Below are positions 5,624 through 55,317 of a DNA stretch of 64,000 bases, piece after piece. The stretch lies in assembly GCA_035771165.1 (NCBI GenBank), contig JAWNZC010000280.1:1648501-1712500 (forward strand). Reading direction: 5' to 3'. Position numbers and translations under genes: made by a program. Numbering within the stretch: the stretch's first letter is position 1; every line of letters begins with the position of its first letter. Under the pieces are notes generated by a model. The model was not told where the DNA came from. It was given only the letters and a program-made list of their open reading frames with translations, and searched no databases. This stretch comes from Paragorgia papillata (taxonomy: Eukaryota > Cnidaria > Anthozoa > Scleralcyonacea > Coralliidae).

Positions 5624-5635
5624 CTCTTTTATTAT
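5621..5635 (-). promoter_or_regulatory. Shared leader ATAATAAAAGAGATG
   Basis: Identical to 819-833. Here it precedes the only recognisable replication gene, so it may mark an early class. Confidence 0.45.
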
Positions 5636-5640
5636 ATTTT

Positions 5641-7191: not shown

Positions 7192-7195
7192 TTAT

Positions 7196-7226
7196 CTTGG
7201 TAAAGATTTTAAAAGTTTTTGCCAAG
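7196..7226 (-). terminator. Stem-loop between the two fibre genes
   Basis: CTTGGTAAA pairs with TTTTGCCAAG (one G-T pair) just after the stop of the 7232-8059 gene. Confidence 0.45.
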
Positions 7227-7231
7227 TTTTT

Positions 7232-8059: not shown

Positions 8060-8077
8060 TATTTATCTTGCAAAATT

Positions 8078-16763: not shown

Positions 16764-16786
16764 GGACTTCCCTGGGTTGGATTCGG

Positions 16787-31429: not shown

Positions 31430-31538
31430 GTAAGTTTTGTATTTAATAATAAAATAAAAATTAATATGAAAATGTCTGCATTTTACTTGAATGTTTAGTT
31501 TCAAATTCAGTAATAAATGCTCAGTTTATATTTTTTAG

Positions 31539-32200: not shown

Positions 32201-32239
32201 GTGTTAAAATATATATAAAATAAATATATATTATTAATA

Positions 32240-32570
32240 AATATTATTTAATTAATTAATTAATTAATCGTAACCTTAACCCTTAATTAATTAATGAATT
32301 AATATTAAATTTAATAGCAGAAAGTGCGATGCCAGGGGAACCAAAAAGAGGAAGTGATAATTGACATTTTCCAACTATATCTAATTAATTAATTAGATAT
32401 AGTTGGAAAATATCAATTAATTAATTAATAATTAATTAATTAATTTAATTAATCCTACAAATACTATTCATTCATTAATTAATTGTAACCTTAACCCTTA
32501 ATTAATTAATATTAAAATTAATAGCATGCCAGGGGAACCAAAAAGAGGGACTGATAATTGACATTTTCCA
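32240..32570 (+). repeat. Tandem intronic duplication with palindrome
   Basis: Two direct copies, about 190-200 bases apart, share CCTTAACCCTTAATTAATTA, ATGCCAGGGGAACCAAAAAG and TGATAATTGACATTTTCCAA. Between them, CCAACTATATCTAATTAATT and its complement form a near-perfect palindrome (about 32369-32405). Each copy has a TAG-like acceptor followed by a short open stretch ending in TGA, so an alternative last exon after the SET domain is possible. Confidence 0.6.
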
Positions 32571-32576
32571 AACTAG

Positions 32577-32929
32577 TTTAAAGAGTCTATGAAGTGAAAA
32601 ATTCGTTGTCTTGCCATGGCTAGTTCGTTTTTCGAGAAAATTTAAGCTTTCGATAACAATGCCTTACGCAAATGGACAACTATGCATAAGAACAATATAT
32701 TTCAGCATGCATTAATGGTCCATTTGCATACGTCATAAGGCATTGTTACCAAAAGCCCAAATTTTCTCCAAAAACGAATTGGCCATAGCAATCATTGAGA
32801 GTTCATAGCTCGAAGATTATACATCAGATTCTCTTGAAATCGTCAGTGAATGCTGCTACCATGTTCCTCTGTTCATGAAAACAACAAAAATGCCAACGAA
32901 TTTTTCACTTCATAGACACTTTAAAGAAG
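32577..32929. mobile_element. 353-bp MITE in PRDM9-like intron
   Basis: TTTAAAGAGTCTATGAAGTG and its near complement CACTTCATAGACACTTTAAAG close the element. GCCTTATG/CATAAGGC words fold inside. Confidence 0.75.
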
Positions 32930-33023
32930 ATTTTAAATTATGGTAGTCAGAAATTCGAATGATTTTTGAGTTACAGACGCAGTCTCTTTTGCAGCCAGAT
33001 GACCTTTTATTCTATATTTATAG

Positions 33024-33809
<786 letters not shown>

Positions 33810-37045: not shown

Positions 37046-37186
37046 TAATCACAAGTGAATATGATATACTGTCCGACATTTTCAAAAAATCGTTTTGGCG
37101 GGAATTTTCCGTGTTTGGATACTCTGATCCAAACACGGCAATTGACCAATCAGGGCTCGCGTAGTATACATGTTATTTTATAAAAC

Positions 37187-37406
37187 GAGATACCAGGATG
37201 CGTGGACAATGTCCGTAAATAGACGCACACAGTACTAAATTTGGAGGGTCGCAATCCCCGGTGGGGTATCTCGGACCGGCAATCATTACACCACCAAGCT
37301 AGCGAGTCGCCAAGGTCTGGCAGACCCGTCTGGTGCTGGCACACGAAGCGCGATCCTACTCAGTTAGGTAATAGTGGTGTTCCTGCGCGACCGAGAAACT
37401 CCTCTC
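37187..37406 (-). repeat. Split direct repeat B2
   Basis: 220 bp, matching B1 at 38506-38725 with only a few changes. It marks the 3' end of the retrotransposon. Confidence 0.85.
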
Positions 37407-38221
37407 AACCAGGGGATTACGGTTCACACTACTAGCCTAGTGGAGAAAGAAAGTAAATAATACAAGTACTCACCCATGATGTGGCTGCACAAACCTGAAC
37501 CTATAGAAAAGGCTTAGGAAACAGCTGCAGCAGACACTGCAACATACTGCAAAGTTAAAGCATAACACTGGACGCCAAATGCAATGCAGATCACCCGGCC
37601 AGCAAGGCCGAGAGAGTTCAAGTAATATCCTGTCTGAGATAGAATAGTTAAGTTATGAAAGCAACATAAATGACACAGGAAGACAACGTACAACACAAAT
37701 TAGCTAACAAATTAATGTATCACCTGGCATGCCAGGGAGAGCAAGACTCACGGCGTCTGTGCTCACAGCTTACTCCCTCTACAGAGTAGACGGAGCAACA
37801 ACGGTGGAGCAACCGTTGGCAAGCCGGGAGAGCCCTCTCCCGGGGTAGCAACAAAAGGTTCTGCAAACGAACCTTGCTGAACACCAGAGGCGCATCTGGT
37901 GAAGGAATAGAGAGGCTCCAAGATTAGAGAGGAAAGTGGGAGAGGTGTAGAGGACGCACAGACGTGATAAACATTAGCTAACTGAGGCGCATCCGTTAGC
38001 AGTTGCGGAGGCGTCAAACTCTAGGGCAGGAGGCAAGTGGATTGGCGCTTGCCCAACCACGCGAATAACAGAGGTGAGTCTGTTAGCTACTGACCAAGTA
38101 ACAACGGAGGCGCATCCGTTGGCAGTTGTAGAGACGACAAACTCCCGTGCAAAGGGAGTGGGGGGTGGATTGGCGCTTGCCCAACCACGCGATCGACAGC
38201 ACGTTGTGGGGAGGAGGGTGG
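37407..38221 (-). other. Segment between A2 and B2
   Basis: 815 bases with a tandem duplication: GGATTGGCGCTTGCCCAACC and GAGGCGCATCCGTT occur twice, about 125 bases apart (near 37983-38062 and 38105-38190). In simple split-repeat elements A2 and B2 adjoin, so this is an addition or a longer repeat whose partner was lost. No gene seen. Confidence 0.6.
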
Positions 38222-38481
38222 GAAGAACCACTCGAGAAACGGTGCCAACAATGCTGAGCCCGGGGCCCAGGAAACACTGACTAGTAGTTCCGGATATTGC
38301 ATCAGCCTTCTAAGCACGCACGTATCACGTGCCTCTGATCAACAGTGCCCAATTCCTGATCGCTGGAGGGTGACACTTCACGTGTGTCATGCGTGACCAG
38401 ATAACCCCTAAGAACCGGGGGAGTTGGAGCCACCCAAACAACACACAGCTAGTTTTAATATTATTTATTGCATAAATCCCA
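38222..38481 (-). repeat. Split direct repeat A2
   Basis: 260 bp, matching A1 at 55032-55290 almost base for base (one insertion and a few changes). A 24-base joint (38482-38505) separates it from B1. Confidence 0.85.
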
Positions 38482-38505
38482 TTAATAACAGCGCTGTGTA
38501 ATAAT

Positions 38506-38725
38506 GAGATACCAGGATGCGTGGACAATGTCCGTAAATAGACGCACACAGTACTAAATTTGGAGGGTCGCAATCCCCGGTGGGGTATCGCGGGCCGGCA
38601 ATCATTACACCACCAAGCTAGCGAGTCGCCAAGGTCTGGCAGACCAGTCTGGTGCTGGCACACGAAGCGCGATCCTACTCAGTTAGGTAATAGTGGTGTT
38701 CCTGCGCGACCGAGAAACTCCTCTC
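38506..38725 (-). repeat. Split direct repeat B1
   Basis: Matches B2 and directly follows the recombinase gene on the minus strand. Confidence 0.85.
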
Positions 38726-38805
38726 CAATGCGACCTCTCCAGCTAACTGGAGCGAGGGTTTCGAGGAACGCGAACCTCCTCCAAGGGGAGCAGCCATAAG
38801 ACAGA

Positions 38806-39705
38806 TCAAGCCAAGATCCGAGCGACGGCAATAAGTACATCTGGGGCTGTGCGTATGTATCGAAGGTACGCGTTGCTAGACCAACGACCGAGGGTCTTTA
38901 TTAAGTGATCCGGAACCCCGGCAGAGGCTGCTGATGTTGCCGCTCCTATGCGAAAACTGTGGCTGCTAAACGAAAAACCAAATCCAGCTGCCGTAAATAT
39001 GGAGCGGAGCCACTGATTGACGAGGGGTGGAGACAATGGAACCGAAGACGACGTAAGAAACAATGGGCCAGGTGAATTCCCCCGAAGAACGAGGTAGGCG
39101 AGTAGAGCAGCCACGGCACAAATAGAATGCCCGGATGGACCAATATGAAGGATCACGCCTTTACAGAAGGGGTCGGTCTTAGACAATTTGATGTTAAGAT
39201 GGATGACACCAGCGGAATCAATGGAGACATCGGAGATTAAGAGGTAGGAGCCGGGATCGAAGGAGGAGGAACACGTAAACTCTGACACTCGGAGAAAACC
39301 AAAGAAAGCCAGGCAGCACGCAGCCCAGAACATACGGTGGTCAAAAGAGTCCGCGGATAGGGAGCGTTGGATTACACTAAGTAACGGACGCGTGATTGGT
39401 AAACGTGAAAGCCGGGAGGGAGATGCAGAACGCTTGATGCCCCGGATGAGGCGATGGAGCCGAGGAGTATCTACCATAGGATCGGCGAAGCCATGATCAA
39501 TGTGCAGGGAACGCACAGCGGAGAGATAAACCGAGATCGATGATGGTGCAAGACGACGGGCAGAAACAAGCCATGTAGCAAACAGCATAATGCACCACTC
39601 GTTTGCTGGCAGGGGAGGTACACCAAGTTGGCCACAAAACTGAAGGAAAAGGCGTTGACCCACGCTGTAAACCCGACGAGTAGACGGGGATAAACCCTGC
39701 GCCAA
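38806..39705 (-). CDS. Tyrosine recombinase of the retrotransposon
   Basis: 299 residues and fully open. An N-terminal SAM-like core-binding region (STRRVYSVGQRLF...) is followed by the catalytic half with the arginine in FFGFLRVSEF, the lysine in KLSKTD, the HxxR box SHSFRIGAAT, and the nucleophile tyrosine in LGRWSSNAYLRYIR. This is the full R-K-H-x-x-R-W-Y set. It would join the circular cDNA into the genome. It is the only gene of the element without lesions, so its activity cannot be ruled out. Confidence 0.85.
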   Translation of the reverse strand: MAQGLSPSTRRVYSVGQRLFLQFCGQLGVPPLPANEWCIMLFATWLVSARRLAPSSISVYLSAVRSLHIDHGFADPMVDTPRLHRLIRGIKRSASPSRLSRLPITRPLLSVIQRSLSADSFDHRMFWAACCLAFFGFLRVSEFTCSSSFDPGSYLLISDVSIDSAGVIHLNIKLSKTDPFCKGVILHIGPSGHSICAVAALLAYLVLRGNSPGPLFLTSSSVPLSPPLVNQWLRSIFTAAGFGFSFSSHSFRIGAATSAASAGVPDHLIKTLGRWSSNAYLRYIRTAPDVLIAVARILA

Positions 39706-39725
39706 CAGGGCGTAGCATTGCGCAA

Positions 39726-40159
39726 TTAGATCGGGGGGATAAGGCTGCGGAGCAATGACGTTGGGATGGTGGTAGGGTGAACGTCCGCTTGAGGTACCAA
39801 GCGTCGGAATTCCTGGAAACGAAAATGAGATAAAGCATCAGCGGCGGTATTGAGACGACCTGGGGTATGTTGCGCGGAGAAGGCGAAGTTATAAAGGCAA
39901 GCCACGCGGATGAGAGAACGAAGCAGGTGCATGATGTGAGGACAACGTGAAGAACCAGAATTGAGAGCGTGCACTGCGGCCGAGTTGTCACATAAAAAAA
40001 GAACCTACAATCGATACCAGTTACGGCCCCACAAATGGCGAGCGACTACGATAGGGAATAATAAAACGCGATGGAAGGAGCATCCGGAAGAAAGGACCAC
40101 GATGAAGCGAACCAGCGAGAGTTCCAGAAAGCACCGAAGCCCACCGCGCCGGCTGCGTC
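39726..40159 (-). pseudogene. RNase H domain, 3' part, after the Polinton insertion
   Basis: It continues the RNase H domain that stops at the Polinton edge near 52153. Readable pieces are GFGAFWNSRWF, then in another frame LFPIVVARHLWG, then LCDNSAAVHALNSGSS and HTPGRLNTAADALSHF (the CDN and AD-type acidic sites of RNase H). At least one frameshift near 40055 and a stop at about 40000 show decay independent of the insertion. Confidence 0.75.
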
Positions 40160-40300
40160 AGTAGGTAACCCCCCCCCCCCATATACCGCCCAAAGGGATG
40201 CCGCCTCATTAAATATTCGGTGTGATGCACGGTGTGACGCACGGTGTGACGCACGGTGTGATAATTAGTATTCGGTGTGATGCACGGTGTGGCGCCCGGA
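40160..40300. repeat. Left terminus: poly-C tip and GGTGTGACGCAC repeats
   Basis: After AGTAGGTAA comes a run of about 12 C, then 12-base units CGGTGTGATGCA / CGGTGTGACGCA in tandem (40218-40262) and two more at 40269-40292. The mirror is at 52010-52152 with one extra unit. Confidence 0.85.
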
Positions 40301-40646
40301 AGTAATGTGGTTGGTGATATAAGCCCAGTGTTGTCGTACAGTCAATTACTTTCATACATTGTTTCACTCGTGGTTTCTGGAGTTCTCATATGAAAAGAAC
40401 GATTTTAAGTATCGAAATATAAACTAAAGGCAAAGCGATTTATCACTTTGAAAGCGTTGCTACGCTTTCTGTTACTAAGTGTGATATTTGCATATTTATC
40501 CTCAGTGCACGTGCAGGAGACAAAAGAGAAACTCATTAGGGGTCATTAAGAGGATTAAGCGCTTGGGCAAGTCTAGTCAAGAGAGTCATTAGCAACACGC
40601 GTACATGTAATACAGAATTTAAAATATTTTATTGAGAAATATATCT

Positions 40647-40943
40647 TTACACAAAAAACTCTTGATTATTTAGTGATCTATCGGTAACACTAGCATATGG
40701 GCATACAGTACATCTTATAATCCGAAGGCATGGATCATGAGCCTTGAATTCTGTACCACAAACATTACATATCAGATTTCGATTAACGCATTTGTTAAAA
40801 TATTTCCACAAACACTTAGGACACTCAATTACATGTGTAAAATTAACAGGATTTTGACAACGTTCGCAATCAACAGGTTCGTCAATTATAGAATTTTCTG
40901 ATTCTATTTCGATGTAATCCTTATCGTTTTCTGAATCTTCTTC
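40647..40943 (-). pseudogene. 3' part of LINE-split Polinton gene, left arm
   Basis: 98 codons after the LINE tail: an acidic stretch (EEDSENDKD) and then a Cys-rich block with CERCQNPV, CPKCLW, CNVCG and CTVC pairs, suited to binding two zinc ions. With the part before the LINE (43367-43766) and one copy of the CTTC/GAAG duplication it makes a 230-codon gene in one frame. The intact gene would be a Polinton virion or accessory protein of unknown function. Confidence 0.7.
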
Positions 40944-43366
40944 GATAGATAGATAGATAGATAGATAGTTTAATATTCACACAATTTGCAGTATAAAATT
41001 ACTGAATTACAGGGTGATTACAAAAAGATCATAATTAAAGTTAAAAGGTAAAAATATTAATAAGAATAAACTACAATATAGCTAATTGTTCACATTAAAA
41101 CTACTTGCTATTAAAAAAGAGTTTCTATACCGTTCTGTCTTAAATTTCGGAATTTCGATTTTCCTAACATTTCTCAAGTTATGACAAGATGTCAAATTTA
41201 CTTTTGAAATAAGATTAAATAATTTATGGTTAGTGTCTTCTAAAATTTGGTTAAAAAACTTCTCGCAAGCTTGATTCCTTCTCTCACGGAGTGTTAACAA
41301 CCCACTTTCAACGAGACAGTCTTCGTATTTGGTTCCTGGATATACGATAGAGTGGGCACGTTTCTGAACACGTTCTATATCTTCACTGAGATACTTTGGC
41401 AGGGAATGGTGGAAAACAATAGATGCATATTCCAGTACTGGTCTAATACATGCTTTATAAAATTGGATTATGTCTCTATTTGGAACTTTGGCTCGCTTTA
41501 ACTGAACCAGAAGATATAGTCGTTTCGAGCATTTAGAGACAATGTTATTTACATGATTGTTCCATTTTAAATCTGATGTAAAAGTAAGACCAAGTAGTTT
41601 TGCCTCTTGCACAACTTCTAATGGTTTTCCATTTACGAAGATTGGAGAGAAGGTGCTATTCGTCTTCTTAAAGTCAATTCTTAGTTTCTTGCATTCATCA
41701 TCATGGAGACGAAATAAGTTAGTATCAGACCACCTTTCAATGTTCATTACAGTCTCTTGAATCGCACTTTGACTATATTTAGACACTGTTTCAGATATCG
41801 TTAAATCGTCAACATATTTGGCCTGGTCAACTCCTATTGGTCTCAGGTCATTGATCATTACAATAAAAAGCCACGGTCCGAGTTTCGTACCTTGTGGAAC
41901 TCCCGCTGGTACATCCCCCCACTCAGAAAAACAGTCGTTGCCCAGTTTCACACGTTGTTTCCTATTGCTAAGAAAATCTATTATCCAATTTAAGGTGGTG
42001 GTAGGAAGACGTAAAAGTTTGAGTTTTGATAGCAGAATAGTATGGTCAACATAATCAAAGGCTTTTTGATAGTCGAACAAGACAACCCGAACAGACGCTC
42101 CATTTCCATCTGTTGCTTCAGTCCATTTATGTATCATTTTAACCAGCGCTAGACTTGTTGATGAGCCAGAGATGACACCGAATTGGTTTGGATCCAGAAC
42201 TTCAAGCACCGCAGGTTTTAAGTGTTCTCTAATCACAAATTCTTCAGCTATTTTTGACAGAATAGGCGTGAGGGAAATTGGACGAAGATGTTTATTAATA
42301 ACTTGTACTGGTGTGGTCTTCGGAATTGGAACAGTATTGGACATTTTCCAGATTTTGGGTAAATGTTGTTCTTCGTATGAGCAATTCAAAATCCTGCTAA
42401 CTGGTAGCGAAAGTAATTCTGCAAATTCTTTAAGGATCCACGATGGAATATTATCCGGGCCTGATGATTTGAATGGATTGAGCGATTTTAGACATTTGTA
42501 GACATCTTCCTCTGACACCGACAGCAAATCAAACCTGGAGTTATTCATATAATCCGAGGTACACACATAATTAGAGGCATTCAACGGCTGAAAAGTTTGT
42601 AACGGCTCTAAGAGTCTATCATTAATTTTGTTAGCTATCTCCGTTTTAGTCATTTGGCGAAGTTCATCTACTTGTAAATTTGAAAATATGTCGGATTTTG
42701 ACAGAGGGTCCATTCCACTAATCTTCTTGACTGCACTCCACCAATCTTTGGGTTTGGTATGTTTGAGATTTTTAATCTTACCATGGAAGTAGGCTTGTCT
42801 ACATTTCTTCCGTTCCGAATTTACCTGATTACGAAAGTACTTAAAGGCAGTTTTATTTCCATTGTTCAGTGCCTTTTGCCGTTTTTTGATTGCGGATTTA
42901 AGTTTGTTTGTCAACCAAGGAGCATCGTTTACATGGATCTTCTTTTCTTTTAAAGGCATTATAGTGTCTAGGATATTTACCAAAACATCATTGAAGACTG
43001 TTACCTTTTCTTCGCAGGTGTTGATATTGTTTAAACATGACCAATCCACCGTAGAAAGGACTCTTCCTAAAGCTGTTTTGTTACTTTGTCTCAAATCGCG
43101 TGTCTTGATAACTTTAAAGTTGTTCTTAGTAACAATTCTAGTCCTCGGAATGGTTTTTATTGTAAAATGGTCTGACAGACCAAAGGGTGCAAATCTTTGT
43201 GGATTGTCATAAAACTGGCTAATGTTGGTTAGAATAACGTCCAGTGTTCTATCTCCTCTAGTAGCGAATTTTACCAGTTGTTTCAGCTTAAATTGACGAT
43301 CAATGCGGGAGGTATTCAACCTGTTTAAATCGCCCATTAAGATAAATCCGCTATTTGGATTTGTTG
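40944..43366 (-). mobile_element. 5'-truncated LINE (CR1/L2/Jockey-like), left arm
   Basis: It begins inside the endonuclease domain (MGDLNRLN) and ends in a (GATA)6 tail on the plus strand. The RT motifs are VLFDYQKAFD, PAGVPQGTKLGPWLF and AKYVDDLTIS. Flanking CTTC at 40940-40943 and 43367-43370 is the likely target duplication. The missing 5' end is typical of target-primed reverse transcription that stopped early. Confidence 0.85.
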
Positions 43367-43766
43367 CTTCTATACTGGTTACTGGTTCGGAGGAAGTTTC
43401 TTCGTTTTTGCTCTCTGATTCTGTTTCTTCTTCTGCCTGCGCCAACATTGTTAGCACTCGAACATTTTCGATAAAGTTTTTGTCAATGTTAATGTCGGCG
43501 AGTCCTTTTACAAATACGTTTAAACCAGCTGGTTCGGGAATTCCTGAGAAGTAAGGTGATACACAGTATTCTACCAATTCGGCTATTTTTGTGTTTGGTA
43601 TAGTTCTTCCTTGATACACAATTTCTCCTTTGGGATTCCATGTTAAGTTGACATAGGATGCGAGTAAACTATTCAACAAAGAGGACGCGTTCGCTTCAAC
43701 GACTCCGTAGTCAAAATGTGACAGTATTTCTTTAACACGAAAATCGTCATGTAACCGTTCTCCCAT
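41082..43766 (-). CDS. Chimeric ORF: Polinton protein fused to LINE endonuclease-RT
   Basis: 894 codons fully open. Residues 1-133 are from a Polinton gene (a TWNPKGEIVYQGR segment and a PAGLNVF..LADINI segment, seen in adintovirus/polinton proteins in pattern). From about residue 134 it is LINE: the end of the EEP endonuclease (GLSDHF), an RT with YVDD, and a C-terminal CEKFFNQIL region. The insertion kept the frame by chance, so one long hybrid frame results. Whether it is made is unknown. The original gene is broken. Confidence 0.85.
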   Translation of the reverse strand: MGERLHDDFRVKEILSHFDYGVVEANASSLLNSLLASYVNLTWNPKGEIVYQGRTIPNTKIAELVEYCVSPYFSGIPEPAGLNVFVKGLADINIDKNFIENVRVLTMLAQAEEETESESKNEETSSEPVTSIEATNPNSGFILMGDLNRLNTSRIDRQFKLKQLVKFATRGDRTLDVILTNISQFYDNPQRFAPFGLSDHFTIKTIPRTRIVTKNNFKVIKTRDLRQSNKTALGRVLSTVDWSCLNNINTCEEKVTVFNDVLVNILDTIMPLKEKKIHVNDAPWLTNKLKSAIKKRQKALNNGNKTAFKYFRNQVNSERKKCRQAYFHGKIKNLKHTKPKDWWSAVKKISGMDPLSKSDIFSNLQVDELRQMTKTEIANKINDRLLEPLQTFQPLNASNYVCTSDYMNNSRFDLLSVSEEDVYKCLKSLNPFKSSGPDNIPSWILKEFAELLSLPVSRILNCSYEEQHLPKIWKMSNTVPIPKTTPVQVINKHLRPISLTPILSKIAEEFVIREHLKPAVLEVLDPNQFGVISGSSTSLALVKMIHKWTEATDGNGASVRVVLFDYQKAFDYVDHTILLSKLKLLRLPTTTLNWIIDFLSNRKQRVKLGNDCFSEWGDVPAGVPQGTKLGPWLFIVMINDLRPIGVDQAKYVDDLTISETVSKYSQSAIQETVMNIERWSDTNLFRLHDDECKKLRIDFKKTNSTFSPIFVNGKPLEVVQEAKLLGLTFTSDLKWNNHVNNIVSKCSKRLYLLVQLKRAKVPNRDIIQFYKACIRPVLEYASIVFHHSLPKYLSEDIERVQKRAHSIVYPGTKYEDCLVESGLLTLRERRNQACEKFFNQILEDTNHKLFNLISKVNLTSCHNLRNVRKIEIPKFKTERYRNSFLIASSFNVNN

Positions 43767-43811
43767 AGTGTTCAGGGTTCGAATGATGGTCTTTAAAAAA
43801 TATCGTTCTTT

Positions 43812-44129
43812 TTATATTAGTTCTGCGAGTCCTTCTAAAACAGGACCAAGTAGGACATCAAGAAATCCTTCACCTTTTTGAACCAGTATCTCTTTTTTTC
43901 TCATAAAATTACTTCGGGGACTAGCCAAAGTTAATATGTCGTCGCTATAAGGCCTAACGTCTTCAAGCAAAGCAGGTGATAATTGATATTGCGTTGACCA
44001 AAAGTTCAACATACAATCACAAATGCATCTAATTCGCTCAGGGCTAGCAGTCTCCAACAGACCTCGCTGTTGAATAGGTTCACTTGTACATAAAAGTTCA
44101 AGAAACGGTTTGTGCTTTTTGATCAACAT
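43812..44129 (-). CDS. Small conserved Polinton protein, left arm
   Basis: 105 residues. Starts MLIKKHKPFLELLCTSEPIQ, then ASPERIRCICDCMLNF, and ends FLDVLLGPVLEGLAEL, a hydrophobic tail. Proteins with this KKHKxFL ... CxCxxN ... GFLxxLLxP layout recur in cnidarian Polinton-like elements and are thought to be virion or membrane-active peptides (family known from pattern; role unproven). It lies between the ATPase and the LINE-split gene. The right-arm copy is frameshifted. Confidence 0.65.
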   Translation of the reverse strand: MLIKKHKPFLELLCTSEPIQQRGLLETASPERIRCICDCMLNFWSTQYQLSPALLEDVRPYSDDILTLASPRSNFMRKKEILVQKGEGFLDVLLGPVLEGLAELI

Positions 44130-44285
44130 CTCTATTTGGCAGTCAGTGTCTAAATGAGGAAAACGCTACCAAAACACATATTTTAGGAGTCTATTAGGAG
44201 CAAATAGACACACACACACATACAAAAGCCTTTAGCTTAAAATATTTATTTCGGTTTTCACTCAAACATATACATATCAAAAGTT

Positions 44286-45638
44286 TTAGTAAGGTCTGCT
44301 TCTTAGATTATATTTAGGCGTTTTTATTTTAAAAGTAGCGTGATAGTCTTTCTTGTCTTCTGGTGATAATTGTGATACATCTTCTTTTGCCATGGGTAAA
44401 TATTTTGATCTAGTCATCATTAGATGATGTTCATACTCTTCTCTATCATCTGGGATCATCTTTGCCAAGTCGCTTTCTTTCCAATCCGAAGAGCTTTCCC
44501 AGTTATGAAAGAAATTATGTTTAAGCGTTGGTTGTTCAACGGTAGGAGGCGGTGTTACAAAATAGGTTTTAGGTGTAGCAGGAGCTGTAGGGAAACTCCA
44601 CGGAAGATCGTCAGTTTCTTGCTTTATCTTTGGTGTCAAATTTTCTGAAGTTTTTGGCGACTGAATTTGAAGATTAGTCAGAGGTTGAGACTGATTCTGT
44701 AGTTGGTTTTGAAACGTCAGAAAACGTCCTAACTGATTGGAGTAGAGTATGCTCTTTTCTTCAGGTGTTAACTGTGGCGCTTGTACAATATCTTGCATTT
44801 TTTGTTCTGTATTGTACATGGCATTAACGATCGGAGGTAATTGATAGGATTGCTTTTGTATGAAACTACCCAGCTGTTGCTGCAGGCTGGAGCTATTTTC
44901 TCCGGGTAGAACATTGGTCTTGAGGCGGTGATCGTCGTCCGTAGGCGGCTTTAGATCAAGCATTAAATAACCATGAGGGCGACTTGTGGCTTCCTCGTAA
45001 CTCTTCATAAATTCATGGACATGTCCAGGATTCACTTGTCGTGCCAAAATAGAAATTTGCTGCTTATCCCTCGGAGACTTGAAGAGTACGATATAGTGTG
45101 CGTTGAGGCTGATGTTTCTGGTTTCCTTTCCTTGGTGAAATATATTTTGAACAATATAGATCACTGAGAGATTCCTATGATGGCTTCCCTTGGTAAATAA
45201 ATTTGCAATGCGCTTATCTCCTCCTGATTGATCCATAAGATCATCTAGGACAATAAGGTTTCGCCTCGAAACATCAAGAAAATCTTCCGAGTCGATGTTC
45301 GTAGGTATTCCTTCATTCAGTTCAACGCCCGGAATAGTTTTGATCATCTCAAGATACATGGGTTGCCACTGACCATAACACCAAATGATACGTTCAGGAG
45401 GGGGGTTGATAGTTGTTCGTGCATTCTCCAGAAGAGTTTTTACCCATACGGTTTTACCACTCTGAGTACACCCTGCAACAATACACGTAAATGGATGCTG
45501 CAGGACTGTGGATCCATTGACGAGGGGAACTGCCTGTCGTATTTGTTTTGTCGATGATCTATGAACCATCTTCATGTGACGGAGGAGATTACTTGAATTA
45601 GCGAAAGATTTTCCACAAACTTCACAAACGTATGACAT
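44286..45638 (-). CDS. Packaging ATPase with N-terminal C2H2 finger, left arm
   Basis: 450 residues. One C2H2 finger spans residues 5-26 (Cys5, Cys8, His21, His26). The ATPase domain has Walker A GCTQSGKT at 56-63 and Walker B LIVLDDL at 128-134, the A32/FtsK-like packaging type of Polintons. The tail from about 250 is low-complexity and ends in a basic KYNLRSRPY. Finger plus ATPase in one chain suggests DNA recognition coupled to packaging. It is the only complete copy: the right arm lacks the finger. Confidence 0.85.
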   Translation of the reverse strand: MSYVCEVCGKSFANSSNLLRHMKMVHRSSTKQIRQAVPLVNGSTVLQHPFTCIVAGCTQSGKTVWVKTLLENARTTINPPPERIIWCYGQWQPMYLEMIKTIPGVELNEGIPTNIDSEDFLDVSRRNLIVLDDLMDQSGGDKRIANLFTKGSHHRNLSVIYIVQNIFHQGKETRNISLNAHYIVLFKSPRDKQQISILARQVNPGHVHEFMKSYEEATSRPHGYLMLDLKPPTDDDHRLKTNVLPGENSSSLQQQLGSFIQKQSYQLPPIVNAMYNTEQKMQDIVQAPQLTPEEKSILYSNQLGRFLTFQNQLQNQSQPLTNLQIQSPKTSENLTPKIKQETDDLPWSFPTAPATPKTYFVTPPPTVEQPTLKHNFFHNWESSSDWKESDLAKMIPDDREEYEHHLMMTRSKYLPMAKEDVSQLSPEDKKDYHATFKIKTPKYNLRSRPY

Positions 45639-46780
45639 GTTTCAGGTATGACGGTCAGATAAGAAATGAATATTTTTCTATTGGCCAACCTTGTTTATAG
45701 TGATTCAACACAATAGTCCTAAGACTATAGTCCTTATAGTCCTAAGACTATAGTCCTAAGTCCTAAGACTATAGTCCTAAGTCCTAAGACTATAGTCCTT
45801 ATAGTCCTAAGACTATAGTCCTAAGTCCTAAGACTATATAAGTCCTAAGACTATAGTACTAAGTCCTAAGACTATATATAGTCCTTATAGTCCTAAGACT
45901 ATAGTCCTAAGTCCTAAGACTATAGTCCTAAGTCCTAAGACTATAGTCCTAAGTCCTAAGACTATAGTCCTTATAGTCCTAAGACTATAGTCCTAAGTCC
46001 TAAGACTATAGTCCTAAGTCCTAAGACTATAGTCCTAAGTCCTAAGACTATAGTCCTTATAGTCCTAAGACTATAGTCCTTATAGTCCTAAGTCCTAAGA
46101 CTATAGTCCTTATAGTCCTAAGACTATAGTACTAAGTCCTAAGACTATAGTCCTTATAGTCCTAAGTCCTAAGACTATAGTCCTTATAGTCCTTAAGACT
46201 ATAGTACTAAGTCTTAATGACTATAGTCCTTATAGTCCTAAGACTATAGTCCTAAGTCCTAAGACTATAGTCCTAAGTCCTAAGACTATAGTCCTTATAG
46301 TCAAAAGACTATAGTCCTTATAGTCCTAAGACTATAGTCCTTATAGTCCTAAGACTATAGTCCTAAGTCCTACGACTATAGTCCTTATAGTCCTATGACT
46401 ATAGTACTAAGTCCTAAGACTATAGTCCTTATAGTCCTAAACTATAGTCCTTATAGTCGTAAGACTATAGTACTAAGTCCTAAGACTATAGTACTAAGTC
46501 CTAAGGACTATAGTACTAAGTCCTAAGACTATAGTACTAAGTCCTAAGACTATAGTCCTTATAGTCCTAAGACTATAGTACTAAGTCCTAAGACTATAGT
46601 ACTAAGTCCTAAGACTATAGTACTAAGTCCTAAGACTATAGTCCTTATAGTCATAAGACTATAGTACTAAGTCCTAAGACTATAGTACTAAGTCCTAAGA
46701 CTATAGTCCTTATAGTCATAAGACTATAGTCCTTATAGTCCTAAGACTATAGTACTAAGTCCTAAGACTATAGTCCTTCT
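45525..46780. repeat. Palindromic minisatellite at the Polinton centre
   Basis: From about 45709 to 46777 the words CTAAGACTATAGTCCT, TATAGTCC and AAGTCC alternate for over 1 kb. GACTATAGTC is itself a perfect palindrome, so both strands can fold throughout. The left edge (45525-45708) is unique and holds the ATPase start region and its upstream DNA, so the two arms are not symmetrical at the centre. Confidence 0.9.
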
Positions 46781-48019
46781 CTCGTCAATGGATCCACAGT
46801 CCTGCAGCATCCATTTACGTGTATTGTTGCAGGGTGTACTCAGAGTGGTAAAACCGTATGGGTAAAAACTCTTCTGGAGAATGCACGAACAACTATCAAC
46901 CCCCCTCCTGAACGTATCATTTGGTGTTATGGTCAGTGGCAACCCATGTATCTTGAGATGATCAAAACTATTCCGGGCGTTGAACTGAATGAAGGAATAC
47001 CTACGAACATCGACTCGGAAGATTTTCTTGATGTTTCGAGGCGAAACCTTATTGTCCTAGATGATCTTATGGATCAATCAGGAGGAGATAAGCGCATTGC
47101 AAATTTATTTACCAAGGGAAGCCATCATAGGAATCTCTCAGTGATCTATATTGTTCAAAATATATTTCACCAAGGAAAGGAAACCAGAAACATCAGCCTC
47201 AACGCACACTATATCGTACTCTTCAAGTCTCCGAGGGATAAGCAGCAAATTTCTATTTTGGCACGACAAGTGAATCCTGGACATGTCCATGAATTTATGA
47301 AGAGTTACGAGGAAGCCACAAGTCGCCCTCATGGTTATTTAATGCTTGATCTAAAGCCGACTACGGACGACGATCACCGCCTCAAGACCAATGTTCTACC
47401 CGGAGAAAATAGCTCCAGCCTGCAGCAACAGCTGGGTAGTTTCATACAAAAGCAATCCTATCAATTACCTCCAATCGTTAATGCCATGTACAATACAGAA
47501 CAAAAAATGCAAGATATTGTACAAGCGCCACAGTTAACACCTGAAGAAAAGAGCATACTCTACTCCAATCAGTTAGGACGTTTTCTGACGTTTCAAAACC
47601 AACTACAGAATCAGTCTCAACCTCTGACTAATCTTCAAATTCAGTCGCCAAAAACTTCAGAAAATTTGACACCAAAGATAAAGCAAGAAACTGACGATCT
47701 TCCGTGGAGTTTCCCTACAGCTCCTGCTACACCTAAAACCTATTTTGTAACACCGCCTCCTACCGTTGAACAACCAACGCTTAAACATAATTTCTTTCAT
47801 AACTGGGAAAGCTCTTCGGATTGGAAAGAAAGCGACTTGGCAAAGATGACCCCAGATGATAGAGAAGAGTATGAACATCATCTATTGATGACTAGATCAA
47901 AATATTTACCCATGGCAAAAGAAGATGTATCACAATTATCACCAGAAGACAAGAAAGACTATCACGCTACTTTTAAAATAAAAACGCCTAAATATAATCT
48001 AAGAAGCAGACCTTACTAA
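46781..48019 (+). pseudogene. Packaging ATPase, right arm, 5'-truncated
   Basis: Codons 39-450 of the left-arm ATPase are present and open to the stop at 48019. The finger and start are missing, because the arm begins within the coding region. The upstream frame hits TAA at 46763, and the first ATG is at 46946, past Walker A. It differs from the left copy in few residues. It would not make a working ATPase. Confidence 0.8.
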
Positions 48020-48175
48020 AACTTTTGATATGTATATGTTTGAGTGAAAACCGAAATAAATATTTTAAGCTAAAGGCTTTTGTATGTGTGTGTGTGTCTA
48101 TTTGCTCCTAATAGACTCCTAAAATATGTGTTTTGGTAGCGTTTTCCTCATTTAGACACTGACTGCCAAATAGAG

Positions 48176-48469
48176 ATGTTGATCAAAAAGCACAAACCGT
48201 TTCTTGAACTTTTATGTACAAGTGAACCTATTCAACAGCGAGGTCTGTTGGAGACTGCTAGCCCTGAGCAAATTAGATGCATTTGTGATTGTATGTTGAA
48301 CTTTTGGTCAACGCAATATCAATTATCACCTGCTTTGCTTGAAGTCGTTAGGCCTTATAGCGACGACATATTAACTTTGGCTAGTCCCCGAAGTAGTTTT
48401 ATGAGAAAAAAAGAGATACTGGTTCAAAAGGTGAAGGATTTCTTGATGTCCTACTTGGTCCTGTTTTAG
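48176..48469 (+). pseudogene. Small conserved Polinton protein, right arm, frameshifted
   Basis: Same as 43812-44129 for about 85 residues. It then lost one base in an A-run near 48427, so the end of the protein is replaced by a different sequence. Three other residue changes are visible. Confidence 0.75.
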
Positions 48470-48537
48470 AAGGACTCGCAGAACTAATATAAAAAGAACG
48501 ATATTTTTTAAAGACCATCATTCGAACCCTGAACACT

Positions 48538-48937
48538 ATGGGAGAACGGTTACATGACGATTTTCGTGTTAAAGAAATACTGTCACATTTTGACTACGGA
48601 GTCGTTGAAGCGAACGCGTCCTCTTTGTTGAATAGTTTACTCGCATCCTATGTCAACTTAACATGGAATCCCAAAGGAGAAATTGTGTATCAAGGAAGAA
48701 CTATACCAAACACAAAAATAGCCAAATTGGTAGAATACTGTGTATCACCTTACTTCTCAGGAATTCCCGAACCAGCTGGTTTAAACGTATTTGTAAAAGG
48801 ACTCGCCGACATTAACATTGACAAAAACTTTATCGAAAATGTTCGAGTGCTAACAATGTTGGCGCAGGCAGAAGAAGAAACAGAATCAGAGAGCAAAAAC
48901 GAAGAAACTTCCTCCGAACCAGTAACCAGTATAGAAG
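48538..48937 (+). pseudogene. 5' part of LINE-split Polinton gene, right arm
   Basis: 133 codons plus one base, up to the GAAG target duplication at 48934-48937. One difference from the left copy is Lys instead of Glu at residue 63. The frame runs on into the LINE to 49452, where an extra A (near 49420) ends it. Confidence 0.75.
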
Positions 48938-51357
48938 CAACAAATCCAAATAGCGGATTTATCTTAATGGGCGATTTAAACAGGTTGAATACCTCCCGCA
49001 TTGATCGTCAATTTAAGCTGAAACAACTGGTAAAATTCGCTACTAGAGGAGATAGAACACTGGACGTTATTCTAACCAACATTAGCCAGTTTTATGACAA
49101 TCCACAAAGATTTGCACCCTTTGGTCTGTCAGACCATTTTACAATAAAAACCATTCCGAGGACTAGAATTGTTACTAAGAACAACTTTAAAGTTATCAAG
49201 ACACGCGATTTGAGACAAAGTAACAAAACAGCTTTAGGAAGAGTCCTTTCTACGGTGGATTGGTCATGTTTAAACAATATCAACACCTGCGAAGAAAAGG
49301 TAACAGTCTTCAATGATGTTTTGGTAAATATCCTAGACACTATAATGCCATTAAAAGAAAAGAAGATCCATGTAAACGATGCTCCTTGGTTGACAAACAA
49401 ACTTAAATCCGCAATCAAAAAAACGGCAAAAGGCACTGAACAATGGAAATAAAACTGCCTTTAAGTACTTTCGTAATCAGGTAAATTCGGAACGGAAGAA
49501 ATGTAGACAAGCCTACTTCCATGGTAAGATTAAAAATCTCAAACATACCAAACCCAAAGATTGGTGGAGTGCAGTCAAGAAGATTAGTGGAATGGACCCT
49601 CTGTCAAAATCCGACATATTTTCAAATTTACAAGTAGATGAACTTCGCCAAATGACTAAAACGGAGATAGCTAACAAAATTAATGATAGACTCTTAGAGC
49701 CGTTACAAACTTTTCAGCCGTTGAATGCCTCTAATTATGTGTGTACCTCGGATTATATGAATAACTCCAGGTTTGATTTGCTGTCGGTGTCAGAGGAAGA
49801 TGTCTACAAATGTCTAAAATCGCTCAATCCATTCAAATCATCAGGCCCGGATAATATTCCATCGTGGATCCTTAAAGAATTTGCAGAATTACTTTCGCTA
49901 CCAGTTAGCAGGATTTTGAATTGCTCATACGAAGAACAACATTTACCCAAAATCTGGAAAATGTCCAATACTGTTCCAATTCCGAAGACCACACCAGTAC
50001 AAGTTATTAATAAACATCTTCGTCCAATTTCCCTCACGCCTATTCTGTCAAAAATAGCTGAAGAATTTGTGATTAGAGAACACTTAAAACCTGCGGTGCT
50101 TGAAGTTCTGGATCCAAACCAATTCGGTGTCATCTCTGGCTCATCAACAAGTCTAGCGCTGGTTAAAATGATACATAAATGGACTGAAGCAACAGATGGA
50201 AATGGAGCGTCTGTTCGGGTTGTCTTGTTCGACTATCAAAAAGCCTTTGATTATGTTGACCATACTATTCTGCTATCAAAACTCAAACTTTTACGTCTTC
50301 CTACCACCACCTTAAATTGGATTATAGATTTTCTTAGCAATAGGAAACAACGTGTGAAACTGGGCAACGACTGTTTTTCTGAGTGGGGGGATGTACCAGC
50401 GGGAGTTCCACAAGGTACGAAACTCGGACCGTGGCTTTTTATTGTAATGATCAATGACCTGAGACCAATAGGAGTTGACCAGGCCAAATATGTTGACGAT
50501 TTAACGATATCTGAAACAGTGTCTAAATATAGTCAAAGTGCGATTCAAGAGACTGTAATGAACATTGAAAGGTGGTCTGATACTAACTTATTTCGTCTCC
50601 ATGATGATGAATGCAAGAAACTAAGAATTGACTTTAAGAAGACGAATAGCACCTTCTCTCCAATCTTCGTAAATGGAAAACCATTAGAAGTTGTGCAAGA
50701 GGCAAAACTACTTGGTCTTACTTTTACATCAGATTTAAAATGGAACAATCATGTAAATAACATTGCCTCTAAATGCTCGAAACGACTATATCTTCTGGTT
50801 CAGTTAAAGCGAGCCAAAGTTCCAAATAGAGACATAATCCAATTTTATAAAGCATGTATTAGACCAGTACTGGAATATGCATCTATTGTTTTCAACCATT
50901 CCCTGCCAAAGTATCTCAGTGAAGATATAGAACGTGTTCAGAAACGTGCCCACTCTATCGTATATCCAGGAACCAAATACGAAGACTGTCTCGTTGAAAG
51001 TGGGTTGTTAACACTCCATGAGAGAAGGAATCAAGCTTGCGAGAAGTTTTTTAACCAAATTTTAGAAGACACTAACCATAAATTATTTAATCTTATTTCA
51101 AAAGTAAATTTGACATCTTGTCATAACTTGAGAAATGTTAGGAAAATCGAAATTCCGAAATTTAAGACAGAACGGTATAGAAACTCTTTTTTAATAGCAA
51201 GTAGTTTTAATGTGAACAATTAGCTATATTGTAGTTTATTCTTATTAATATTTTTACCTTTTAACTTTAATTATGATCTTTTTGTAATCACCCTGTAATT
51301 CAGTAATTTTATACTGCAAATTGTGTGAATATTAAACTATCTATCTATCTATCTATC
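48938..51357 (+). mobile_element. Same LINE insertion, right arm
   Basis: Identical boundaries to the left copy. The tail is (TATC)5 instead of six units. An extra A near 49420 breaks its frame, and the RT part (49592-51223) reopens with all motifs. Having the same insertion site in both arms shows the LINE came before the duplication. Confidence 0.9.
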
Positions 51358-51654
51358 GAAGAAGATTCAGAAAACGATAAGGATTACATCGAAATAGAAT
51401 CAGAAAATTCTATAATTGACGAACCTGTTGATTGCGAACGTTGTCAAAATCCTGTTAATTTTACACATGTAATTGAGTGTCCTAAGTGTTTGTGGAAATA
51501 TTTTAACAAATGCGTTAATCGAAATCTGATATGTAATGTTTGTGGTACAGAATTCAAGGCTCATGATCCATGCCTTCGGATTATAAGATGTACTGTATGC
51601 CCATATGCTAGTGTTACCGATAGATCACTAAATAATCAAGAGTTTTTTGTGTAA
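51358..51654 (+). pseudogene. 3' part of LINE-split Polinton gene, right arm
   Basis: Mirror of 40647-40943, same length (297 bases). An ATG in the LINE tail (51325) reads into it, giving a 109-codon frame with the acidic stretch and Cys pairs. Confidence 0.7.
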
Positions 51655-52009
51655 AGATATATTTCTCAATAAAATATTTTAAATTCTGTATTACATGTAC
51701 GCGTGTTGCTAATGACTCTCTTGACTAGACTTGCCCAAGCGCTTAATCCTCTTAATGACCCCTAATGAGTTTCTCTTTTGTCTCCTGCACGTGCACTGAG
51801 GATAAATATGCAAATATCACACTTAGTAACAGAAAGCGTAGCAACGCTTTCAAAGTGATAAATCGCTTTGCCTTTAGTTTATATTTCGATACTTAAAATC
51901 GTTCTTTTCATGTGAGAACTCCAGAAACCACGAGTGAAACAATGTATGAAAGTAATTGACTGTACGACAACACTGGACTTATATCACCAACCACATTACT
52001 TCCGGGCGC

Positions 52010-52152
52010 CACACCGTGCATCACACCGAATACTAATTATCACACCGTGCATCACACCGTGCGTCACACCGTGCATCACACCGTGCATCACACCGAATAT
52101 TTAACGAGGCGGCATCCCTTTGGGCGGTATATGGGGGGGGGGGTTACCTACT
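52010..52152. repeat. Right terminus: 12-base repeats and poly-G tip
   Basis: Mirror of 40160-40300 with one more CACCGTGCATCA unit, then a G-run and GTTACCTACT. Confidence 0.85.
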
Positions 52153-53374
52153 TGCGTCAGACGACACAAAGAGGTCAGGCAAAGGAGTAAATTTTGTGCG
52201 GAGAAAGAAACTGATGCCATTCCATTCTTGAAAGAATGCCAGCCACCATTGCAGATCCCGGCGAAATTTAGCGTTAATGCGGACTGGGTGAGACCGATTG
52301 CGAAACCGGGACAGAAGGTCGATCATACGACGAAGAAACGCCCGACCAGGGCGAGCTCCTGGCGATGACAAGTGCGCCGGCCCACCCAAGAACGGAGGAG
52401 GTCCAGGGTAGAAGCCATCTTATCATCAGGGAGACGAGCAGTCTGGCGAATAGAATCCAATTCGATGCCGAGAAACACTAGCGTGGTAGAGGGGCCCATG
52501 CACTTGGACGGGTGGAGTGGGAGTCCAAGACGGCGGAAAACATCAAAAGCAGTGGAGACGTGAACCTGGCATTGTGGAGAATCCGGAGGACCCATGGTCA
52601 GAAAGTCGTCAAGATAGTGCAGTATTGGTGCCACCTGATAGTTATTGGAAAGGATCCAGTGAACTGCCGAGGCTACGGCATCAAACAGAAAGGGTGCCGA
52701 CCGCAAACCGAATGGCAGGACAAGATCAACGTAAAACTGGTCTCGCCATTTCATACCGAACAGAAAACGGTCTTCTGGATGGATTGGAATGTTGCGATAC
52801 GCTGCTTCGACATCGAATTTGGCCATAAGTGTCCCAGGTCCGAGGGAAATAAGTTCTCGGATGGCGTCATCAATGGTAATGTAGTGTATGGAGTAGGGGT
52901 CCTTAGGAATCCCGTCGTTAACACTTGAACCAGTCGGTGAAGAGAGGTCGAGAATCAGGCGCCACTTACCCGGTTGGGACCGCTTGGGAATGACCCCAAA
53001 TGGACTGACGTGCAGGTTTGCTAGAGGTGGCGTGGAAAAGGGGCCAGCTAGCGGCGCCGAGAAATTTCCTCTGCCAAGTAGTTGTCAATGACCGTTGGAT
53101 GCTCAGCTGATGATTTTAAGTTGCGAGAGCGAGAGCGTAAAGAGATCATATCAGGAATAAATCCGATACGGAATCCCTGCTGAATACCAGTCAGAACAAA
53201 AACCTTCTGTGGACTTGGGTAGTGTAGGAGTTCCCTAGAAAACTCGGCAAGGACCAGGGGCGAAACATCTCGTACTGGGAGGGTAGCCAGAACAGTTCTT
53301 GAAATATCTGTAAGAAAAAAGGGGGGGGGTGGGAGCCGTAGAAACAAGCTGGAAAAAAGTCGTAGGGTAACCAA
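52153..53374 (-). pseudogene. Reverse transcriptase and start of RNase H, broken
   Basis: The DIRS-type RT has motif A FDVEAAYRNIPI, motif B LPFGLRSAPFLFD and the YLDD box LHYLDDFLTMG, then FLGIELD. A one-base indel near 53050 separates the N-terminal part (LTGIQQGFRIGF; IDNYLAEEI) from the core, and another near 52370 moves the connection (FLRRMIDLLSR; RRDLQWWLAFF) out of frame. The last readable residues are FVSSDA, the first acidic site of RNase H, and there the Polinton begins. It is inactive. Confidence 0.85.
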
Positions 53375-53635
53375 CCCAACCCCCGAACAACAGACGAGAC
53401 ACGCGTAACAAGAAATAACAGTTTAATAACATGAACTACAACAAATAGTAGCACGAGATAAAACTGCGCCAAAAGCCGGGCCGAGAGTTGCATAACTACG
53501 CAAACAGCTCGTCAACTGCGTGAAACAATGTAAACAAACAAACAAAACACTAGCTGCAAATAGCTGCACGTAAAGTTTACAGGAGCAATCTATAACAAAG
53601 ACTGCGCAAGTCAACTGCATCGACAGGCACGTAAA

Positions 53636-55021
53636 TTACACGCGGCGTTGATGTTTGACTACACCCAGGGAGCTTTCACGGGAGGGACAGGATATACGTC
53701 GGTGTTCACCCCTGCAAAAAGGAACCTCGCAAACGTGGCGATAACGACACGGTTTACGGGGAGCCGCACATGCTCCACCGTTCCACGAGCGGCAGATGAG
53801 GTTGGTTGACGGAGAAGCAACAGCCGAGGTGATCGATGAAGGAGGTAGGCTACGTGAACCAATGGCAGTGTGGAAATTGTACAATTCTACGTTCATGTGC
53901 GACCAGTCGACTACGCCCCGGGCTGCTGCGTCACGCCGAAATGCTTCATCGTAACTGTGCCAAGATGAGCCGCCAAATCGAGAGTAAGTGCGGAGGATAA
54001 GTAGCTGGTATAGCATGAGATCCCGAGATCGCTGGGGAAAATAAGTTGACAGTACCACGGAGTAAATGCCAAACGCTTGAATCCACTGGATGACGTCAAG
54101 AGGTTGGCGGCGTTTGCGGATAGATGGTGAAATAACCACGGTACCATCAATGGTCACGGTGGGAAGGGCGATATCGTCGTCAGTAGGAGTGCGGATCAGT
54201 ACAGACAGATCCACAAATTGGCCCGACGTAATAGCGGCAACAATCTTGTAAGGAATCGGGTGGAACCCAGGCCCAATGACAATGGCCGCGCTGAGAGGAG
54301 GGTAAGCCCCTGAGCTAGGGGCTAGCGCCGCACTCCCCCCGGAACCAAACAAAGAAGGAACACTCATACCTGATAAATGTTCTACAACTGGTGATGAAAC
54401 CATTCCAGGAAGAGAAGCGGGACCAGGAAAGGGGGGAGGCGCTGTTGCCAACTGAATATTCGGTACACTTGGGTGGACAAAAGGTGATCCAGCGGTGGCG
54501 GAGGAAGGCCCAGCCATGGCAGGTAAGGAGGACAGGATCATTGAGGTGGGACAACGTGTCGATGACGGAAACTGGGCTGGGCCTTGAAACCAAGTCAAAC
54601 CACTGGGAGACTGCGGTACAGAGGCCTGAGGACCCGTAGGGGCCTGGTGCCAAAAGGCGAATGGCGAACCAACTGTTGGCAAAATGGCGCCAAAATTCGC
54701 TTGCATCGAAGACGAAGCCAGAGGGGAGGAAAACGACGTTGACGAAGCCGGTCGAGGACCCGACTGTAGCCCGGACACGGTAGACTGAGCCATGGGTGGC
54801 TGGACAGGATGTGAGGCGTCCACCGAAGCTGAACCAGCTATTGTTGTTGGCAAAACACCCGAGGCAGTCGAGGGTGACGAAGACGGCAAAGATGCCAACG
54901 ATAAATCTCTGTTAAATGTCACCACAGGCTGTGGAACGGGCAAGGAAGTGGGCTCTGTCATTAAGGATACGAGTTCGTTTAATGAGGCAGAAGCTTGATT
55001 ACTTTTGGAAATACGAGGCAT
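53636..55021 (-). CDS. Gag-like protein of the retrotransposon
   Basis: About 461 residues from the ATG at 55021. An upstream ATG at 55087 lies inside repeat A1 and is less likely. The first 230 residues are Ser/Pro-rich and disordered. A middle domain (VDLSVLIRTP..; DVIQWIQAFGIYSVVLSTYFPQ) is followed by CRSWNGGAC-x6-C-x3-H, a CCCH zinc motif like those in DIRS-type Gag proteins. It is open throughout, unlike the RT gene. Confidence 0.7.
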   Translation of the reverse strand: MPRISKSNQASASLNELVSLMTEPTSLPVPQPVVTFNRDLSLASLPSSSPSTASGVLPTTIAGSASVDASHPVQPPMAQSTVSGLQSGPRPASSTSFSSPLASSSMQANFGAILPTVGSPFAFWHQAPTGPQASVPQSPSGLTWFQGPAQFPSSTRCPTSMILSSLPAMAGPSSATAGSPFVHPSVPNIQLATAPPPFPGPASLPGMVSSPVVEHLSGMSVPSLFGSGGSAALAPSSGAYPPLSAAIVIGPGFHPIPYKIVAAITSGQFVDLSVLIRTPTDDDIALPTVTIDGTVVISPSIRKRRQPLDVIQWIQAFGIYSVVLSTYFPQRSRDLMLYQLLILRTYSRFGGSSWHSYDEAFRRDAAARGVVDWSHMNVELYNFHTAIGSRSLPPSSITSAVASPSTNLICRSWNGGACAAPRKPCRYRHVCEVPFCRGEHRRISCPSRESSLGVVKHQRRV

Positions 55022-55031
55022 AAAAAACCGT

Positions 55032-55290
55032 GAAGAACCACTCGAGAAACGGTGCCAACAATGCTGAGCCCGGGGCCCAGGAAACACTGACTAGTAGTTC
55101 CGGATATTGCATCAGCCTTCTAAGCACGCACGTATCACGTGCTTCTGATCAACAGTGCCCAATTCCTGATCGCTGGAGGTGACACTTCACGTGTGCCATG
55201 CGTGACCAGATAACCCCTAAGAACCGGGGGAGTTGGAGCCACCCAAACAACACACAGCTAGTTTTAATATTATTTATTGCATAAATCCCA
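55032..55290 (-). repeat. Split direct repeat A1
   Basis: The 5' end of the retrotransposon on the minus strand. Beyond it lies unique AT-rich DNA (ATAATATATTATAGTATAAT). Confidence 0.85.
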
Positions 55291-55317
55291 ATAATATATT
55301 ATAGTATAATATAATAG

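Follow-up and report, generated by a model that had tools for sequence, protein, structure and literature searches.

A palindromic Polinton-related element in Paragorgia papillata and its repeatedly inserted family

Among relatives of the Polintons, adenovirus, which replicates by protein priming, has palindromic defective genomes that are inverted duplications of one genome end. Snapback genomes of adeno-associated virus (AAV) are, in the portion of the literature cited here, self-complementary, of left- or right-moiety type, symmetric or asymmetric, and found beside the full genome (PMC8235507). The excerpted accounts of Polintons (Mavericks) and their kin give 6-bp duplications and (AG)3//(CT)3 or (AGT)2//(ACT)2 end motifs for vertebrate Mavericks (PMC8097293) and a chromodomain integrase for adintoviruses (PMC11071296). 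Galileo is grouped with the P elements by its transposase, as stated in the cited part of its description (PMC3573991). The stretch analyzed here, 64,000 nucleotides of the Paragorgia papillata genome (assembly GCA_035771165.1, contig JAWNZC010000280.1, positions 1,648,501 to 1,712,500; hereafter the window), holds at 40160-52152 an element of 11,993 bp that is almost wholly inverted repeat. We consider it probable that this element belongs to a family of non-autonomous, snap-back palindromic Polintons moved by the DNA polymerase (PolB) and integrase of a helper.

With adintovirus-like Polintons the element shares AGTAG-type AG...CT ends, 6-bp duplications, and an ATPase gene with small neighbor genes; unlike them it yields no hit with PolB, the integrase or the candidate capsid proteins, is nearly all inverted repeat, carries its remaining genes twice, and has arms that change in concert. 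Adenovirus defective genomes are not known to form heritable mobile families, whereas here a family has inserted repeatedly. The occurrence of both PolB-side and ATPase-side palindromes with asymmetric centers recalls AAV, as far as the cited account goes; AAV is a parvovirus whose genomes were read from particles, whereas the palindromes described here lie in an animal genome, in repeated insertions, with an ATPase gene that shows purifying selection. Foldback elements such as Galileo likewise have long, internally repetitive inverted repeats, but they are not known to have Polinton ends or Polinton genes. No description of palindromic Polintons was found among the titles and abstract openings returned by searches of the open-access literature, which in one case covered 15 of 117 hits, subscription papers and repeat databases lying outside that search.

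The arms of the window element, 5365 and 5372 bp, are 99.33% identical over 5378 columns of the window's self-comparison, with 17 mismatches and 5 gap openings; an inverted repeat of 5.4 kb at 99% identity would be far beyond chance. The termini read AGTAGG...CCTACT, and a perfect 6-bp target duplication, TGCGTC, flanks the element. We reconstructed the empty site from the flanks and one TGCGTC. An open frame (..LFVSSDAAGAVGFGAFWNSRW..) runs across the resulting junction, inside a host retroelement that we take to be DIRS/Ngaro-like; the frame motif presumably belongs to its RNase H. Because this frame reads through the empty site, the duplication is independently supported; with the frame re-opened there, the assembled sequence records both insertion and duplication as real events. 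From center to end each arm carries the ATPase gene, O105, gene X, subterminal 12-bp repeats and the terminus, and gene X is split by a LINE in both arms. The arms are asymmetric: the 5' end of the ATPase gene lies on the left side alone, and the right arm begins inside that gene (46781). A tandem array in the loop (45713-46778) has periods of 21, 44 and 65 bp, and 201 loop bases folded as single-stranded DNA gave a z of -5.08, with none of 200 shuffles as good.

We then asked what else the genome holds (617.9 Mb, 473 contigs; C-numbers denote loci or elements within it, and genome-wide locus counts are lower bounds). A search with 1501 bases of the left end returned at least 58 matches (best 40 of 2354 candidates), many of them as inverted pairs. 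ATPase-type palindromes occupy 15 distinct resolved insertion sites, 14 with perfect 6-bp duplications and one with 5 of 6 bases. Beyond the window, the duplications are CAGGCC, CATATA, CACGTA, TACGTT/TACGTA (the 5/6 case), GTCGTT, AGTGTA, CACAAC, AACGTT, CATGTT (two copies with common flanks), GTTGTT, AGAGTC (three extra bases at one end), GCGGTG, TACATT and AACATC. An end search at 8 ATPase-type loci found none at three, C87b, C211 and C339, where the inverted arm measures 91 bp, 799 bp (perfect) and nothing, respectively.

This family has several central junctions. The window element, C327 and C87 (group A) have one base-identical junction, and C350, C14, C111, C57, C22 and others (group B) have a second, wholly spanned at 30 of 40 scored loci (best of 699 candidates with a 701-base query; one locus is one base short, and two duplicate C131 copies are included). 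C6 has a third. In group D a loop of X, O105 and array is enclosed by arms of 1817 bp (C443, 99.5% identity) and 1826 bp (C140, 99.4%). Among 94 scored ATPase loci, 22 are no more than 3 kb from a group-B center and 12 belong to inverted pairs; 64 of 95 ATPase search rows have no in-frame stop. Two palindromes are of PolB type: C311 (arm alignment 4435 bp, 99.84%; duplication GTGGCC in a short-palindrome target) and C261, seen in its ends and PolB positions (duplication AACATG; end arms 98% over 324 bp). Wherever the ends of a copy were resolved, the two termini bear the same type of Polinton end, the arms are inverted and the copy is flanked by a 6-bp duplication of its own; thus it is palindromic molecules that integrate. 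As read from the assembly, the copies show that palindromes insert as palindromes, repeatedly and with Polinton ends.

Separately, inverted integrase pairs about 7 kb apart occur at C115:98864-107168 and C234:2701240-2709825, possible integrase palindromes. C72 holds an inverted PolB pair, C413 has ATPase and PolB as neighbors, and a Mab-21-type gene (L036:6315-8165, 5e-19) lies near a one-armed ATPase element.

Linear Polintons are present in the same genome. C385 (13,158 bp, ends AGTAGATAACCCC, duplication CGTGTG) carries PolB in two adjoining frames, a tandem array, an ATPase gene, a 115-codon O105 homologue and a gene for a 245-codon protein. On its opposite strand are three candidate virion/protease genes without Pfam match (449, 269 and 180 aa), which from Polinton gene order we take to be protease and capsid. 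That strand also encodes an integrase (rve 3.8e-16, Chromo 6e-12) and a GRF zinc-finger protein, and has a frame that is Bcl-2/E1B-19K-like. C18, a linear element of 12.3 kb with duplication GCTGTT and an array of 21-bp period between PolB and ATPase, is likely a deletion derivative. Window positions 40390-40591 are 94% identical over 202 bp to the right subterminal region of C18, and the window ATPase is 44% identical to the ATPase region of C385. Pairwise comparison relates both gene X and the window ATPase to the 245-codon protein: X is similar to its C-terminal half (E 5e-12), and the C-terminal part of the ATPase to its N-terminal half (E 1.5e-4). The PolB palindrome C311 and linear C18 have a common gene order and ATPase 5' part. 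Searches of the window by tblastn at E 1e-3 gave no match to PolB (queries from C311 and C18), to the C385 integrase or to the three candidate capsid/protease proteins of C385. An earlier note on this DNA had described inverted arms of about 5.37 kb with AG...CT ends and a TGCGTC duplication, and had read them as a Polinton-related palindromic molecule integrated as such; the arm identity, the perfect duplication, the frame-restoring empty site, the Polinton-like ends and these negative searches all agree with that description, and other palindromic Polintons with like ends, of ATPase and PolB type, are indeed found in the genome.

Integrase loci number at least 113 in the genome, 103 of them without stops; of 77 scored PolB loci, 25 have one of these integrases within 18 kb, in 24 cases on the opposite strand. 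Since a linear Polinton with both PolB and integrase exists in the same genome, their supply in trans, and movement of the palindromes by that route, is plausible. Two candidate origins were rejected. C321, considered as a linear parent, carries a single end and a single ATPase; a search of 16 kb did not find the second end, and the element matches the palindromes of group D. The arms as the right end of a C385-type Polinton are a misfit: this simple model fails because the integrase, Bcl-2-like and GRF genes occupy that end, and the arms match the C18 right end better than that of C385. As a side observation, a linear-Polinton frame, L058:2249-2653, resembles adenovirus E1B 19K and Bcl-2 (E 6.4e-5 and 0.0064, below Pfam cut-offs).

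For the ATPase gene, comparisons between groups give a ratio of nonsynonymous to synonymous change (dN/dS) of 0.13-0.15; the two group D elements (same layout, dS 0.23) give 0.18, and group B gives 0.29 internally, with few changes; these values show a gene evidently under purifying selection. For O105 the ratio is 0.32-0.41 between distant groups. The closest ATPase relative with a named organism, among the best 120 of 446, is from the coral Oculina patagonica (46%), and viral contigs searched with the window ATPase gave no relative. PHROGs returned nothing useful for five proteins. A word-based search of 5.8 billion proteins found two relatives of gene X, one with a similar cysteine-rich tail by eye. 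The carried ATPase may help packaging.

A palindromic family moved by helper proteins could arise as follows. A Polinton strand made by protein-primed synthesis would fold back near the array beside the ATPase gene, and copying of the folded strand would give a palindrome with the origin and the integrase end at both termini. Helper proteins would replicate and integrate it. In each cycle its single strands could fold into hairpins, whose arms would be made equal again by stem repair or by another round of fold-back copying. We further suggest, more tentatively, that the palindromes may be self-maintaining Polinton satellites, with a selected packaging-ATPase module of their own instead of genes for replication and integration, helper Polintons for both functions, and both arms renewed in every cycle from one template through the hairpin.

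The arms of these palindromes have evolved together. The clearest case is the LINE: three independent insertions, the window element, C327 and C87, have the same junction, yet the window copy has a LINE in each arm and the other two have none. Therefore the palindrome predates the LINE, and its arms were re-equalized later. Within elements, arm differences in ~1190 bp number 0 (C22, C350, C280b), 1 (C14), 3 (C280a, window), 4 (C418), 6 (C87), 7 (C6) and 9 (C57), with partial one-arm data for C111 (4 in 555), C327 (2 in 555) and C435 (0 in 636). Different insertions differ from each other at 7 to 26 positions where both segments are comparable, and copies of the window insertion at 0 to 8; arms within one element are more alike than arms of different elements with the same junction. 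With partial rows dropped, and judged by shuffles that ignore the relatedness of elements, four group-B elements of one junction showed both-arm change at 31 element-columns and one-arm change at 9 (5.0 expected for both if arms were independent, 0/5000 shuffles), a five-element test of one segment gave 11 and 11 (1.24 expected, 0/5000), and two group-A tests gave 9 and 9 (3.0 expected, 0/5000) and 4 and 3 (0.79 expected, 7/5000). End types vary among members of one junction group and agree within each element read. Together these comparisons indicate that, once a palindrome exists, one arm is copied from the other. Two suppositions of the earlier note therefore change: the arms are not alike simply from one original mirror copy, since the palindrome is older than the LINE in both of them, and the element is not a single defective accident, since it belongs to a family whose members have inserted repeatedly and show several central junctions.

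The arms might instead be kept alike by gene conversion after insertion, as in chromosomal palindromes, with the elements moving as palindromes and no hairpin replication. Gene conversion works well between inverted arms separated by a few kb, and it would also transfer a LINE between the arms. Unerased one-arm changes in C57, C6 and C87 speak against it, as do elements with many non-majority letters in both arms and few in one (C22, 14 and 0; C280a, 10 and 3), and members of a junction group that differ in end type bear the same type on both sides. We regard this explanation as unlikely, while giving it more weight than the others below.

Several points count against a helper-moved, hairpin-renewed family. 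Chromosomal gene conversion could equalize the arms, and sequence cannot separate it from a replication step; both-arm changes do not outnumber one-arm changes in two of the four sets (11 against 11, 9 against 9), though both exceed expectation, and the disregard of relatedness in the shuffles bears on all four. Among scored loci, none proved to be a linear parent that combines the window ATPase subtype with PolB and integrase: none of the 94 scored ATPase loci lies within 20 kb of any of the 113 integrase loci listed, and 2 lie within 25 kb of a scored PolB. One-armed or broken copies exist (C321, C440, C46, C364). Gene X has within-group dN/dS of 0.47-1.45, on few changes and with no clear constraint, and selection on the ATPase gene may be partly older than the palindromes.

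The remaining explanations fare far worse than gene conversion. A foldback-type DNA transposon that captured Polinton genes would account for very long inverted repeats with internal repeats, which are typical of such elements, but the ends and 6-bp duplications match linear C18 and C385, the subterminal DNA is 94% identical to that of C18, and Pfam, applied to the two largest frames of the left arm, showed no transposase (matches above the cut-offs were to RVT_1, a zinc finger and an ATPase; no foldback library was searched); we think it very improbable. Even slighter is the chance of a one-off defective genome, formed by one fold-back, integrated once and then multiplied by chromosome duplication: the junction common to the LINE-carrying copies would fit, as would the outer flanks of the two that were checked, but fourteen further ATPase-type sites with duplications of their own and several other junctions contradict it. 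Palindromes are a classic artefact of long-read libraries, and those described here come from assembled genome sequence, but fold-back reads or a collapsed center are about as improbable as a one-off defect, given the mismatches and gaps between the window arms, the differing flanks that together form one empty site, and the many loci that agree with different junctions and duplications.

Features of the window element and its surroundings (window coordinates)
Feature	Position	Strand	Remark
Target-site duplication TGCGTC, left copy	40154..40159	.	
Target-site duplication TGCGTC, right copy	52153..52158	.	
Left arm of palindrome, starts 5'-AGTAGGTAACCCCC	40160..45524	+	
Right arm, inverted copy of left arm, CCTACT-3' terminus	46781..52152	-	
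Loop (1256 bp): 5' end of left ATPase gene, leader, hairpin-prone tandem array	45525..46780	.	
Subterminal 12-bp repeats CGGTGTGACGCA	40218..40261	+	mirror copy 52039-52095
Packaging-ATPase-like gene, intact 451-codon frame, N-terminal C2H2 finger and Pox_A32 match	44286..45641	-	Pfam
Second ATPase copy, 5'-truncated (homologous part from 46781)	46766..48019	+	
O105, 105-codon frame; 31% to 115-codon ATPase-adjoining gene of linear Polintons	43815..44129	-	
Second O105 copy, interrupted frame	48176..48489	+	
Gene X 5' part, left arm; homologous to C-terminal half of linear-Polinton protein	43386..43766	-	
Gene X 3' part, left arm; cysteine-rich, zinc-ribbon-like (by eye)	40650..40949	-	
Gene X 5' part, right arm	48538..48918	+	
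Gene X 3' part, right arm	51352..51651	+	
5'-truncated LINE, left arm, (GATA)n tail, 4-bp duplication TTCG	40945..43385	-	RVT_1
Same LINE, right arm	48919..51351	+	limits inferred from gene X pieces
Tyrosine-recombinase-like frame of host element, left of insertion	38806..39837	-	Pfam matches below curated cut-offs
Reverse-transcriptase frame of host element, right of insertion	52323..53084	-	RVT_1

The LINE is carried by seven copies, including that in the window, and their retroelement junction sequence is identical at the ends found. C280b and C418, the two LINE copies whose flanks were fetched further, have flank identity extending past the retroelement and are therefore duplications of the window insertion; the idea that LINE-carrying copies were separate insertions was dropped on the common junction in all seven and the matching outer flanks in these two. 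Other copies of the window insertion are rearranged: C46 (L017) and C364 (L018) are chimeras that contain or adjoin PolB and Bcl-2-like fragments, and the right arm of C435 (L014-L015) is split by ~22 kb of other DNA. The host retroelement spans 37181-55296, with split direct repeats pairing 37181-37406 with 38499-38725 and 38222-38487 with 55032-55296.

Elsewhere in the window, the - strand of 830-8062 holds a virus-like cluster with a Pox_A32-type ATPase (6.9e-14), an AEP primase (3.6e-26) with PriCT_2, a 403-aa protein without Pfam match over cut-off and a 516-aa protein that is collagen-like by eye. A second palindrome of 2.76 kb, 95% alike, lies at 15380-18140; the self-comparison rows listed do not connect it with the Polinton element. 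At 31517-33809 a SET-like frame is followed by a C2H2 finger array with parts 83-93% alike, presumably PRDM9-like.

The finding bears on how Polintons replicate and on whether particles form. Palindromes that insert repeatedly, with arms that are equalized and then diverge, would document in the genome how a protein-primed element replicates by fold-back, and supply a set of natural markers for that process. They are also a warning that such long inverted repeats in assemblies need not be artefacts. If the carried ATPase serves packaging, these elements would be animal counterparts of phage satellites. Furthermore, if the palindromes are indeed satellites, then the PolB palindromes, and possibly integrase palindromes, would turn this host's Polintons into a system built from palindromic parts.

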